A stretch of DNA of 44,908 nucleotides from a virus: IMG/VR virus record IMGVR_UViG_3300048836_000986, positions 1-44,908 of that record. One strand, written 5' to 3'. The position numbers and the translations under genes were made by a program. The first letter of the stretch is position 1. Each line of letters starts with the position of its first letter. Positions 2,102 to 15,108 of the stretch are shown here, piece by piece. A model generated the notes under the pieces. The model saw only the letters and a program-made list of their open reading frames with translations. It had not been told where the DNA came from and made no database searches.

Positions 2102-2272
2102 ATGCCGATAACGAGCGATGGAGTTGTGAGCAAGGAAACGAAAGAGCAGTGGCCGAGCGTGCCCAATCCCGGCAGCGATGAGGCGTTGGAATCCGGTTGC
2201 CGGTGCCCGGTGCGCTCGCGGAATAACACTATAAATCTGCACCCTTGCGAGTTCGTAAATGTTCTTGGATGA
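2102..2272 (+). pseudogene. 5' fragment of a small conserved phage gene split by an insertion
   Basis: A good Shine-Dalgarno (AAGGAG) precedes the ATG. The native part reads up to ...VPNPGSDEALESGCRCPVRSRNN and then runs into the inserted cassette, where it ends after 14 foreign codons. I recognise NPGSDEA...CxCPV...NNxHGxG...CPLHG as a recurrent small phage protein; the missing half (NNGHGKGYMGQ...CPLHG) lies intact at 3215-3307. Joined, the two would give a protein of about 70 residues with paired cysteines. Function of the family is unknown to me. Confidence 0.75.
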
Positions 2273-2384
2273 GATGCACGATTTGAGCGTTTACGCTTCG
2301 ATTTTCTCGCTTAGCCATTCGAGCAATTTCGGCATGAAGCGATTTGTCAATTCGTAAAGTAAAACGAATTTCTTTAGTTTTCAT
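2229..2384 (-). CDS. Arc/MetJ-type ribbon-helix-helix regulator
   Basis: The 51-residue protein begins MKTKEIRFTLRIDKSLH and continues with two helices (AEIARMAKRENRS, VNAQIVHLIQEHL). This is the Arc-type pattern: a short beta strand (residues 5-11) that pairs in a dimer and enters the major groove, followed by helix-turn-helix. Such proteins repress their own promoter. The upstream 55 bases hold four TGACACT-type boxes that suit it. The ATG at 2384 is preferred since the -10 box (TATATT) lies 7 bases upstream, which would make the mRNA nearly leaderless. Confidence 0.8.
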   Translation of the reverse strand: MKTKEIRFTLRIDKSLHAEIARMAKRENRSVNAQIVHLIQEHLRTRKGADL

Positions 2385-2440
2385 GACACTAAATATACGC
2401 CAATTTGACACTTAGCGCAAATGGTGTCATAATAGTGTCA
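2384..2440. promoter_or_regulatory. Divergent overlapping promoters with four operator boxes
   Basis: Rightward: TTGACA at 2405-2410, a 17-base gap, CATAAT at 2428-2433, then ATG at 2440. Leftward: TTGCGC (complement of 2415-2420), a 17-base gap, TATATT (complement of 2392-2397), then ATG at 2384. In both directions the start codon is where transcription should begin, so both mRNAs may be leaderless. Boxes TGACACT at 2384-2390 and 2406-2412, and inverted GGTGTCA at 2423-2429 and AGTGTCA at 2434-2440, cover the -35 region and the start points and fit a ribbon-helix-helix repressor. Confidence 0.75.
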
Positions 2441-3216
2441 TGGAAACTAAGATTTGCACCCGCTGTGGCAAGACGTTGGAAATGAAACATTTTAATTTTC
2501 GCAAGCCTCCTCGTGTCGAGTACAAAGACACTTGCAATCAATGCCGTGCTCCAATGAGCGAAGATGCACGTTTTTGGAGTAAGGTGTCGAAGTCGCCAGA
2601 TGGCTGTTGGGAATGGACGGCGGGACGATTATTTGAAGGTGACTATGGCGCTTATCGTTATCAAGGGCGGACACAGCGCGCTCACAGAGTAAGTTGGGAA
2701 ATGCTCTTTGGCAAAATTCCTGAAGGCTTTGTCATATGTCATGCGTGTGATAATCCTCGTTGCGTGCGACCGGAACATTTGTTTTTGGGAACTCATAAAG
2801 ACAATATGCAAGACATGGTACGCAAAGGCCGTGCGCGTCCGCTTGCAGGAGAGCACGCGCCTGCTGCGAAATTATCTAAGTTAGACGTTAGTCGGATTCG
2901 ACGCAGGTATGCAAAAGGGAAAGTTTCACAGGCCGAATTAGCGGAAGAATATGCGTTACATCCTACCCAAATTAGTCGAATTATAAATGGCCGAAAATGG
3001 AAACATTCCTTCAGGGGAATCATAAAACCCATTCGTCCAATCGTGAACAAAGGAACTCGTCACAAAAAGGGTGAGATAAATCCTTTGGTGCTGTGCGATT
3101 GTGGATGCGGTGAAAGATTGAGCAGATATGACAGATACGGGAGGCCGAGAAAATATATTCGTGGTCATAGCTTGAAGCGCAAGCAATGCGATGAGCAAAA
3201 AACATTGGAATTCTAA
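2440..3216 (+). CDS. HNH homing endonuclease
   Basis: The 258-residue protein has an N-terminal zinc-ribbon-like motif (CTRCG at 6-10 and CNQC at 32-35), an HNH nuclease core (VICHACDNPRCVRPEHLFLG, with H101, N105 and H113 as likely catalytic and metal residues), a DNA-binding helix-turn-helix (KLSKLDVSRIRRRYAKG...QAELAEEY..HPTQISRIING), and a C-terminal CDCGCGE region often seen in phage HNH enzymes. It likely nicks or cuts the intact version of the gene it interrupts and so promotes its own copying. It is driven by its own promoter and lower in GC than its neighbours. Confidence 0.9.
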   Translation: METKICTRCGKTLEMKHFNFRKPPRVEYKDTCNQCRAPMSEDARFWSKVSKSPDGCWEWTAGRLFEGDYGAYRYQGRTQRAHRVSWEMLFGKIPEGFVICHACDNPRCVRPEHLFLGTHKDNMQDMVRKGRARPLAGEHAPAAKLSKLDVSRIRRRYAKGKVSQAELAEEYALHPTQISRIINGRKWKHSFRGIIKPIRPIVNKGTRHKKGEINPLVLCDCGCGERLSRYDRYGRPRKYIRGHSLKRKQCDEQKTLEF

Positions 3217-3307
3217 CAACGGGCATGGCAAAGGCTACATGGGGCAGGCGGGTATTTTTGCGATGAATTTGGATTGCCCGTTGCATGGATTTGGGGTGAA
3301 CGAATGA
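3191..3307 (+). pseudogene. 3' fragment of the split small gene
   Basis: The native part begins at about 3215 (NNGHGKGYMGQAGIFAMNLDCPLHGFGVNE) and matches what is missing from the fragment at 2102. An ATG at 3191, inside the 3' end of the endonuclease gene, is in frame and could let this half be translated as a 38-residue peptide, although its ribosome site is weak. It ends in an ATGA overlap with the next gene, which shows the original operon spacing is intact after the insertion. Confidence 0.7.
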
Positions 3308-5527: not shown

Positions 5528-5628
5528 AAAATACCCCGACCATTTTTCACTGCGCCGACGCCCTGCCTCAAGAGATGCCCTGCGTCGAGAGTTCTACCCC
5601 CGACACGACACGACAAGGAGAACGCACT

Positions 5629-7515
5629 ATGCACGAAAACGAGCCTCACGAGCCGTTTTTCGGCGGGTTTGCGGCGCATGAGCTTTTAGACGCGCCGCCC
5701 ACATCCCACCAAAACGGCAACGGCAACAATAGCAACGGAATGGAACCCCAAAAACCAAAAGCGGCAAGCGGCATCAACAGCCGCACCAACTACCCCGTTC
5801 ACACCCAGTTTGAAATTATCCTCGACCGCCTGAAAAAGTTTCGTTTGGTGCTTTCGGATACCGGGCAGCCCTACATCGTTGTGCCCCTGAAAGGCCATTT
5901 GACGCCGCTTTTTATCGGCGACGGCGAGTTTGACGATTATTTGAGCGTCCTCGCCGAGCGCGAAAAAATGATACTCAAAAGAGACGCGCGCAGCATGGTC
6001 AAGCAGATTTTGCGCGGTCATTGCAGCGAACGCGGCGAGCCGGTTGAACTCGCACTGCGTATGGCCGGAAGCGTGCAGGACGACAAACCGCACTTTTATG
6101 TGGATTTAGGCGATACCCAGCGCCGCCTCGTTCGGGTCACTGCCGACGGTTGGGAGGTTTTGGAAGGCGAGGCCGCTAACCGCGTGCCGGTGATGTTTCG
6201 CCGTTTGCACGCGATGCTTCCGATGCCGGTGCCGGCGCGTTTGGATGACGCAGAGCGCGCCGCAGTCTGGCAGGAGTTCCGTGACCTGATACAGCCGGGC
6301 AGCGAGGAAAACTGGGTCAAGATGATAGCGTGGATATTGAACTGTTTTCGCGCGCCCACCGCGCCGTATGTCGGGCTGTGCATCAACGGACAAGAAGGCA
6401 GCGGCAAGACCACGCGCTCGCGGATGCTGCGAATGCTGGTTGATCCTCACCGCATGAAGTTGATTGGTGAGGTGCGCGAGCGCAAGGATTTCGAGCCGAT
6501 AGTCAATTCGACGTTTGCGCTGGCTTTTGAAAACCTCTCGCGCATCGAGCAATGGCTTTCGGACGCGCTCTGCATGATCGCCACCGAAGGCTGCTTTCCG
6601 GTGCGCACGCTGTTTACCACGATGGATTTAACGATTATGACGGCGCTGCGCCCGATGCTGGTGAACGGCATCACCGATTTTATCCAGCGCCCGGATTTGA
6701 AGCGCCGGTTTTTGTTTTGCGAAGTGCCGCCGTTTGGCAGGGGCATCCAAAAAGTCGGGGACAAAAAGCTCGCGGCGCAATTTGAGGCTTTGCAGCCGCG
6801 TTTGATGGGCGCGATATTCGATGCAGTCGCGGCGGCAATGCGGCATAGCGAGGACGAAGAGATCGCGGCGCTCGACTGGGGCGAAGGCATACCGGACTTT
6901 GCGGCGGCGGTGGCGGGCGCGGAAAAAGCCGGAATGCTGCCCTGGAAAGAAAACGGCCACTGGCGCGCGGTGTATCTTGAAAGTATGCAAAATACGGCGG
7001 CGGCATCCCTGAATGAATCGCCGGTCGCGCAGGCGGTGATCGCTTTGCTGGACTGGTGCGAGGCAACAACCGGGCAGGCGCGGTTCGTGTCCGAAGCCTC
7101 TATGCTGTATCCGCGCGTAACGCAGGTGGCGGCATGGCAGATGCTTTTGCGCGATGAAATACTGGAAACCGAGTATCGCGGCGAAGGCGGCAGTTGGATG
7201 CCGGTGTTTTCACCCACGCAAAAAGCCGAGCATATCCGCGACCTGACGCCCGTTTTGGATTTGCGCGAATTGATTCCCGAACACGCGCGGCATAACCTGA
7301 ACGAAAAAGGCGCGCGGGCGCTGTCAAAAACCAACTGGCCGAAAAGCGCCATCGCCTTCGGCCAAAAACTGCGGCGTGAACAAGCCGGGCTGCGCGCGGC
7401 GGGCGTGGAAATCAAAAAGCCCTACGGCAACCACAGCACAACGTGGATACTGGAGCGACTGCCAAAAATCGAGGACGACAAGGACGGTAACCGCGATATT
7501 TTCGATGACGAGTAG
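5629..7515 (+). CDS. Phage replicative P-loop ATPase (helicase-like)
   Basis: The 628-residue protein has a Walker A motif (INGQEGSGKTT, about 252-262) and a Walker-B-like segment (FALAFENLSRIEQWLSDALCMIATEG, from residue 296). Next comes ...RPMLVNGITDFIQRPDLKRRFLF, which holds the sensor and arginine residues usual in this group. Such ATPases occur beside prim-pol genes in phages and probably act as superfamily-3-like helicases. The N-terminus is low-complexity (NGNGNNSNG). The start is chosen for AAGGAG 7 bases upstream. A strong terminator follows the gene. Confidence 0.75.
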   Translation: MHENEPHEPFFGGFAAHELLDAPPTSHQNGNGNNSNGMEPQKPKAASGINSRTNYPVHTQFEIILDRLKKFRLVLSDTGQPYIVVPLKGHLTPLFIGDGEFDDYLSVLAEREKMILKRDARSMVKQILRGHCSERGEPVELALRMAGSVQDDKPHFYVDLGDTQRRLVRVTADGWEVLEGEAANRVPVMFRRLHAMLPMPVPARLDDAERAAVWQEFRDLIQPGSEENWVKMIAWILNCFRAPTAPYVGLCINGQEGSGKTTRSRMLRMLVDPHRMKLIGEVRERKDFEPIVNSTFALAFENLSRIEQWLSDALCMIATEGCFPVRTLFTTMDLTIMTALRPMLVNGITDFIQRPDLKRRFLFCEVPPFGRGIQKVGDKKLAAQFEALQPRLMGAIFDAVAAAMRHSEDEEIAALDWGEGIPDFAAAVAGAEKAGMLPWKENGHWRAVYLESMQNTAAASLNESPVAQAVIALLDWCEATTGQARFVSEASMLYPRVTQVAAWQMLLRDEILETEYRGEGGSWMPVFSPTQKAEHIRDLTPVLDLRELIPEHARHNLNEKGARALSKTNWPKSAIAFGQKLRREQAGLRAAGVEIKKPYGNHSTTWILERLPKIEDDKDGNRDIFDDE

Positions 7516-13932: not shown

Positions 13933-15108
13933 ATGTCAGAAAACCCGATGCAGTTCCAGTTGTTGCCCTCGCTTTCCGAGCAGGAGTATGAATCGTTGAA
14001 GTCGGATATTGCCGCGCGCGGCGTGATGGTTCCTGTTGAAAAAGATGAAGCCGGGAACATCCTCGACGGCTTCCACCGTTTGCAAATTTGCGCGCAGTTG
14101 GGGATTGAGGATTATCCGGTCACGATCCGCTATTTTCAGACGGACGAGCAAAAAGAAGATTATGCGCTTTCAATCAATCTCTCGCGGCGTCATTTATCAG
14201 TGGAGCAACGTAAAACGTTAGTCGGCACACTGCGTGGGCGCGGTTGGACTTTAGAGCGCATAAGCGGAGTACTCGGAACTGGCGTTGGGACGGTTTCCCG
14301 CGATTTAGATTCAACTTTTCCAAATGGAAAAGTTGAACAACCCGAAAGCACAATCGGCAAAGATGGCAAAAGTCGCCCGACGAAATACAAACCGCGCACC
14401 ATTACGGCGCGCAATAAGAAGGAAGCGGAAAAGGCAACGGATGCGCTCGACTTGATTGGTTGGGATGATGGTGAAATAAAAACCACCGATGAGGTTATGG
14501 ATGAGGCAAAGCGCATGAGCAGTGCCGCGCGCATTGGAAAGCAGCGCGAGGAAATTGCAGAAAAATGTCGGAATCTGCCGGAAGGAAAGTATTCTTGCAT
14601 CGTGATTGACCCGCCCTGGCCGATGCAAAAAATAGAGCGTGAGGAACGGCCAAACCAGATCGGCTTTGATTATCCCACCATGAGCTATGAGGAACTTTTG
14701 AAGTTTCCTTGTGGCGATTTTGCCGCCGATGATTGCCATTTATATCTATGGACAACGCACAAGCATTTGCCGTTTTCTTTTGAGTTGGCCGAGGCTTGGG
14801 GATTCAAATACCAATGCCTGATGACGTGGGTAAAGAATGTGGGAATGACGCCGTTTTCATGGATGTATTCAACCGAACACGTTTTGTTTTGCAAGCGAGG
14901 CAATTTGCCCTTAGACCAGTTGGGACTGCGGCTCGATTTTAACGCGAAAGTGCGTGAGCATTCGCGCAAGCCCGATGAGTTTTATGATCTTGTAAAGCGA
15001 GTATCAGCCGAGCCGCGCATTGATATTTTCAGCAGGGAGGGACGCGATGGCTTTGAATCATGGGGCAGTGAGGCAGGAATGTTTGACCCGGCAACAGCCG
15101 TCGCCTAA
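13933..15108 (+). CDS. ParB-like domain fused to MT-A70 N6-adenine methyltransferase
   Basis: The 391-residue protein begins with a ParB/Sulfiredoxin-like domain (LPSLSEQEYESLKSDIAARGVMVPVEKDEAGNILDGFHRLQI in outline; DGFHR at 45-49), then a helix-turn-helix (RTLERISGVLGTGVGTVSRDL region, about 105-125), and a C-terminal MT-A70 methyltransferase with the catalytic motif DPPWP (226-230) and later SAM-fold motifs (YLWTTHKHLPF, TWVKN, EHVLFCKRGN, KPDEFYDLV). It should methylate adenine in DNA at a site chosen by the N-terminal domains, which could protect phage DNA from restriction. AAGGAG precedes the ATG by 6 bases. Confidence 0.9.
   Translation: MSENPMQFQLLPSLSEQEYESLKSDIAARGVMVPVEKDEAGNILDGFHRLQICAQLGIEDYPVTIRYFQTDEQKEDYALSINLSRRHLSVEQRKTLVGTLRGRGWTLERISGVLGTGVGTVSRDLDSTFPNGKVEQPESTIGKDGKSRPTKYKPRTITARNKKEAEKATDALDLIGWDDGEIKTTDEVMDEAKRMSSAARIGKQREEIAEKCRNLPEGKYSCIVIDPPWPMQKIEREERPNQIGFDYPTMSYEELLKFPCGDFAADDCHLYLWTTHKHLPFSFELAEAWGFKYQCLMTWVKNVGMTPFSWMYSTEHVLFCKRGNLPLDQLGLRLDFNAKVREHSRKPDEFYDLVKRVSAEPRIDIFSREGRDGFESWGSEAGMFDPATAVA

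Follow-up and report, generated by a model that had tools for sequence, protein, structure and literature searches.

A divergent ribbon-helix-helix gene and an HNH endonuclease gene inside a split small gene of a metagenomic tailed phage

The interrupted small gene and its insert

The stretch of DNA analyzed here (the window), 44,908 bases long, is a virus record drawn from a metagenome collection. It carries terminase, portal, head protease, major head, and tape-measure genes, which identify it as a tailed phage. No close relatives of this phage were found by a DNA search of known phages, nor in viral contigs when a large neighboring protein was used as the query. The left edge of the contig cuts a pentapeptide-repeat gene, of which the 3′ end is present (1–534, + strand) with about 20 copies of a 15-nt unit. 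Elsewhere in the window, a 646-amino-acid protein (5575–7515, + strand) has no Pfam or PHROG match; its sole counterpart in known phages is a distantly matching Microbacterium phage protein, annotated there as a helicase or primase. Another protein (13933–15108, + strand) matches ParB-like and DNA-methyltransferase PHROGs.

The locus described here consists of a small gene in two pieces and the insert that separates them, which carries two genes of its own:

2102–2215 (end approximate), + strand: left half of the split small gene, MPITSDG...PNPGSDEALESGCRCPV
2213–3217: insert of about 985–1005 nt, delimited by comparison with intact relatives and by the shift in GC content
2229–2384, − strand: 51-amino-acid ribbon-helix-helix (RHH) protein, a putative repressor, with its ATG at 2384 and its stop at 2229
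2440–3216, + strand: 258-amino-acid HNH_3 endonuclease
3215–3307 (start approximate), + strand: right half of the split small gene, NNGHGKGYMGQAGIFAMNLDCPLHGFGVNE

Joined together, 2102–2215 and 3215–3307 encode one small protein. The initial annotation had read these pieces as two halves of one gene lying about 990 bp apart, and a profile built from intact relatives agrees, matching both the left half (E = 1.8e-7) and the right half (E = 3e-11). The same profile detected no other copy of the small gene in the window. The left-half reading frame continues beyond the junction to a stop at 2272. As a query, the joined protein had no match in viral contigs, phages, or PHROGs; its relatives were retrieved from viral contigs with degenerate DNA patterns. 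Among the matches listed, about 100 distinct relatives are intact and none is split at this site. They share the pattern PNPGSDEAxxxGCxCPV-x-DN-xHGKGYMG...CPLHG, and the insertion point falls between CPV and NxHGKGYMG, immediately ahead of the gene's most conserved block, which is where a homing site would be expected. This small CxC...CPxH family has no Pfam or NCBIfam model. It is common in uncultivated phage contigs (loci L027–L065 and L149–L263) and nearly absent from 50,697 cultured-phage records.

The right junction of the insert lies between 3214 and 3218. In nearly all intact relatives, two residues separate CPV from N (CPV-x-D-N-x-x-G), whereas the left piece in the window reads CPV-RSR-NN, and the left junction therefore cannot be fixed more closely than 2213–2228. 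It fits a clean insertion poorly, as two codons seem to be extra or altered. The base composition changes across the insert, with 44.5% GC inside compared to 58.4% and 54.8% in the flanks. The two inserted genes do face away from each other (2384 to 2229 on the − strand and 2440 to 3216 on the + strand), and their stops do lie at the junctions: that of the RHH gene ends at 2229, one base from AATAAC, and that of the HNH gene (3214–3216) overlaps AACAAC. The initial annotation also took these two hexamers for repeats marking the edges. This part did not hold up, as a five-of-six match between the 21-nt edge stretches arises in 80% of shuffles. A target-site duplication was rejected on the same grounds (P about 0.8), as was a DNA transposon, for which no terminal inverted repeats were seen either.

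The two proteins and the region between their genes

The HNH protein matches Pfam HNH_3 (9.1e-17) and an endonuclease PHROG (1.3e-33). From its N-terminus, it contains a zinc ribbon, the HNH core, a helix-turn-helix, and a zinc-like C-terminal module (CxCGC...GHS). The catalytic core is complete, with every residue that is invariant among 11 relatives kept. HNH genes related to it occur in phages as free-standing genes. Those examined with annotation, in phages and plasmids, lie on the same strand as the upstream gene, often touching it, and show no divergent regulator. One related free-standing HNH gene (locus L242, 6873–7824, − strand) lies immediately upstream of an intact small gene of this family in another phage, with its end overlapping the start of that gene. 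It is the only case of an HNH gene this close to a family member among the 112 family genes examined.

The RHH protein matches Pfam HicB (9.6e-7), as well as Arc and RHH_1, and a PHROG of Arc-like repressors (1.7e-9). Its predicted model has an extended N-terminus followed by helices at residues 14–25 and 31–49, although its match to solved structures is weak (best E = 0.038). The start had been assigned to a GTG at 2411; the ATG at 2384, giving 51 amino acids, is most likely instead. We also considered a type II toxin-antitoxin pair with an RHH antitoxin and rejected it, as the genes are divergent and a 51-amino-acid RHH protein is essentially a DNA-binding domain alone.

The start regions of both genes carry the same sequence, TAGTGTC-ATG-(A/G)AAACTAA, in mirror image. 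This inverted repeat and a cluster of short TGACAC/GTGTCA boxes, both of which the initial annotation had overlooked, define the following features:

2374–2391, − strand: inverted-repeat arm over the RHH start codon, 18 nt, 17 of 18 complementary to 2433–2450
2384–2440 (57 nt): proposed shared operator, with TGACAC/GTGTCA boxes at 2384, 2406, 2424, and 2435
2392–2420, − strand: possible weaker RHH promoter, TTGCGC-17-TATATT, 7 nt before the ATG, found by reading and not reported by the consensus scan
2405–2433, + strand: predicted sigma-70-type HNH promoter, TTGACA-17-CATAAT with TG before the −10, 11 of 12 consensus bases (a consensus match only)
2433–2450, + strand: inverted-repeat arm over the HNH start codon, 18 nt, partner of 2374–2391

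Neither the repeat nor the clustering resembles chance. The best inverted repeat in 60 shuffles paired 14 of 18 positions, against the 17 seen here, and shuffles of 2332–2490 held a mean of 0.09 boxes and a maximum of 2, against the 4 observed. The boxes are spaced by steps of 22, 18, and 11 nt, and half of the eight in the whole window fall in this 57-nt stretch. The predicted HNH promoter overlaps at least two boxes and ends 6 nt before the ATG, so its mRNA would be leaderless. If both predicted promoters are used, both mRNAs would be leaderless, unlike that of the left half, which is preceded by a Shine-Dalgarno-like AAGGAG.

RHH repressors can be as small as this protein (Arc has 53 amino acids and CopG 45), and another regulator of this class, omega, binds 7-bp repeats that are arranged in arrays and occur in both orientations (PMC4803016). 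From the Arc/CopG-like size, the behavior of omega, and the boxes and inverted repeat, the RHH protein probably represses both its own gene and the HNH gene through the TGACAC boxes between them. The predicted operator thus gives good reason to think that the RHH protein controls the HNH gene, in line with the initial suggestion that the cassette has its own repressor.

Origin of the insert

The best explanation, which we favor with some confidence, is an intronless insertion of an HNH homing-endonuclease gene into the most conserved part of the small gene, accompanied by a divergent gene for a 51-amino-acid RHH repressor. What we infer is that the RHH protein binds the operator and represses, that the nuclease cleaves the intact site, and that the element moves. 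In outline, the RHH protein would bind the boxes between the genes and repress itself and the HNH gene, holding the nuclease at a low level in an established genome. On entry into a new host or a co-infected cell, the HNH gene may be expressed briefly; its product would then cleave small-gene copies that lack the insert, into which repair would copy the element.

More tentatively, the RHH and HNH genes may form a two-gene homing element with a mirror-image promoter-operator and predicted leaderless starts, the two genes moving together and falling silent once established, much as a lysogenic repressor silences a prophage. An RHH gene was looked for in the other loci examined, including 108 with relatives of the HNH gene (25, 80, and 2 loci, the last in bacterial genomes, plus Myxococcus phage Mx9; a few loci represent one gene present in overlapping contigs). 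None of them has one, the two in bacterial genomes included, so the two genes may not move together. A single copy of the arrangement was found, and the distinct minimal mobile unit proposed in the initial annotation thus has one example.

The same survey lends some weight to an unlikely but not negligible alternative of two unrelated events, in which the RHH and HNH genes arrived separately (or the insert is an accidental moron), the HNH gene homes alone, and the RHH protein serves other phage functions. No relatives of the RHH protein were found in viral contigs. Matches in phages are weak only, and none of the four examined in context lies beside an HNH gene; its nearest relatives in known phages have different surroundings, among regulators or antirepressors or beside a filamentous-phage replication gene. 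However, the two genes are tied together by start regions of nearly identical sequence and by the four boxes that they share. Few such boxes occur in the rest of the window, with no sign of other targets, and the 3′ ends of both genes lie at the edges of the insert.

It is also conceivable, though improbable, that the insert is not selfish but is retained because it benefits the phage, with the small gene either working as two separate pieces or having been lost under selection. Both halves remain open and well matched to their relatives, and the right half has a possible start of its own (ATG at 3191) and a stop overlapping the start of the next gene (3304). There is also a precedent in the split NrdA of Aeromonas phage Aeh1, which is functional (PMC2988022). 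Against this, a recent insertion accounts equally well for the intact halves, and the protein has only about 60–70 amino acids, with its CxC and C-P-L-H motifs now on separate pieces.

Phage group I introns often carry HNH genes, and the target gene is otherwise intact, both of which would suit a divergent self-splicing intron carrying the HNH gene. The sequence gives this little room. No Rfam RNA family (group I, group II, or other) reached the gathering score in the insert, no credible match appeared at E ≤ 10, and RNA folding revealed no intron; the strongest fold feature of the insert is merely the inverted repeat over the two starts. The HNH gene is not fused in frame: its reading frame differs from that of the left half, and it has a start and a stop of its own. 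Both an intron and an intein are therefore unlikely, and the initial description of a cassette inside a gene without an intron stands as far as recognizable introns and inteins are concerned. With the HNH stop at the 3′ edge and the opposite-strand RHH gene filling the 5′ end, little space is left for a catalytic core, and we regard the divergent intron as very improbable. An assembly chimera is equally hard to credit: the locus is known from a single contig with an abrupt GC change and no second copy, but the gene halves flank the insert in the correct order and orientation, unlike a random join.

An HNH homing insertion with a divergent repressor gene, the reading we prefer, bears on how such nucleases are restrained. 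Homing endonucleases are costly if expressed freely. To our knowledge, the self-limitation of free-standing homing endonucleases is poorly known outside T4. If a nuclease gene brought its own repressor and operator, self-limitation would be simple and portable. The insertion also points to the widespread small CxC...CPxH phage family as a homing target.

Comparison with known systems

The placement of the insert is not new. The initial annotation considered an intron-free position inside a gene unusual; nevertheless, mobE in nrdA of phage Aeh1 and mobA in T4 gene 60 are intronless HNH insertions that split a gene (PMC2988022). Here, too, an HNH gene without an intron lies at a conserved place inside a coding gene and leaves two open pieces. 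As with the mobE/mobA type, the HNH core is complete, the target is intact in relatives, and no recognizable intron or intein surrounds the nuclease gene. Unlike mobE and mobA, this cassette includes a divergent RHH gene, and the interrupted host protein is tiny. Expression is also predicted to differ. In the T4 descriptions, mobA and mobE lack promoters and depend for their expression on phage promoters upstream, and the promoterless state is described for seven free-standing nucleases of T4 (PMC2988022), whereas the cassette has a predicted promoter of its own.

At the level of the nuclease itself, the HNH core and helix-turn-helix are shared with free-standing phage HNH_3 proteins (PHROG 1872, 59, and 826), although none of these matches 80% of the length of the window protein. 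The HNH protein of phage Mx9 is about 45% identical over 71% of the query. The C-terminal zinc module is missing from the HNH relatives aligned.

The RHH protein resembles Arc, CopG, and omega in its fold family, in its size (45–53 amino acids in this class), and in the repeated short operator boxes predicted here. It differs from them in being paired with an HNH nuclease in an insertion and in its weak match to solved structures. Our literature search found no report pairing an RHH protein with a homing endonuclease, and no RHH gene accompanies the 108 related HNH loci; it is thus the proposed dedicated repressor and shared operator that make up the unusual part of the cassette. The closest parallel in control is I-TevI of the T4 td intron, which represses its own promoter (PMC2988022). 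There, an operator overlapping the nuclease promoter holds expression down, and the same is predicted for the cassette. I-TevI, however, represses itself with its own DNA-binding domain, whereas in the cassette this role probably falls to a separate RHH protein.
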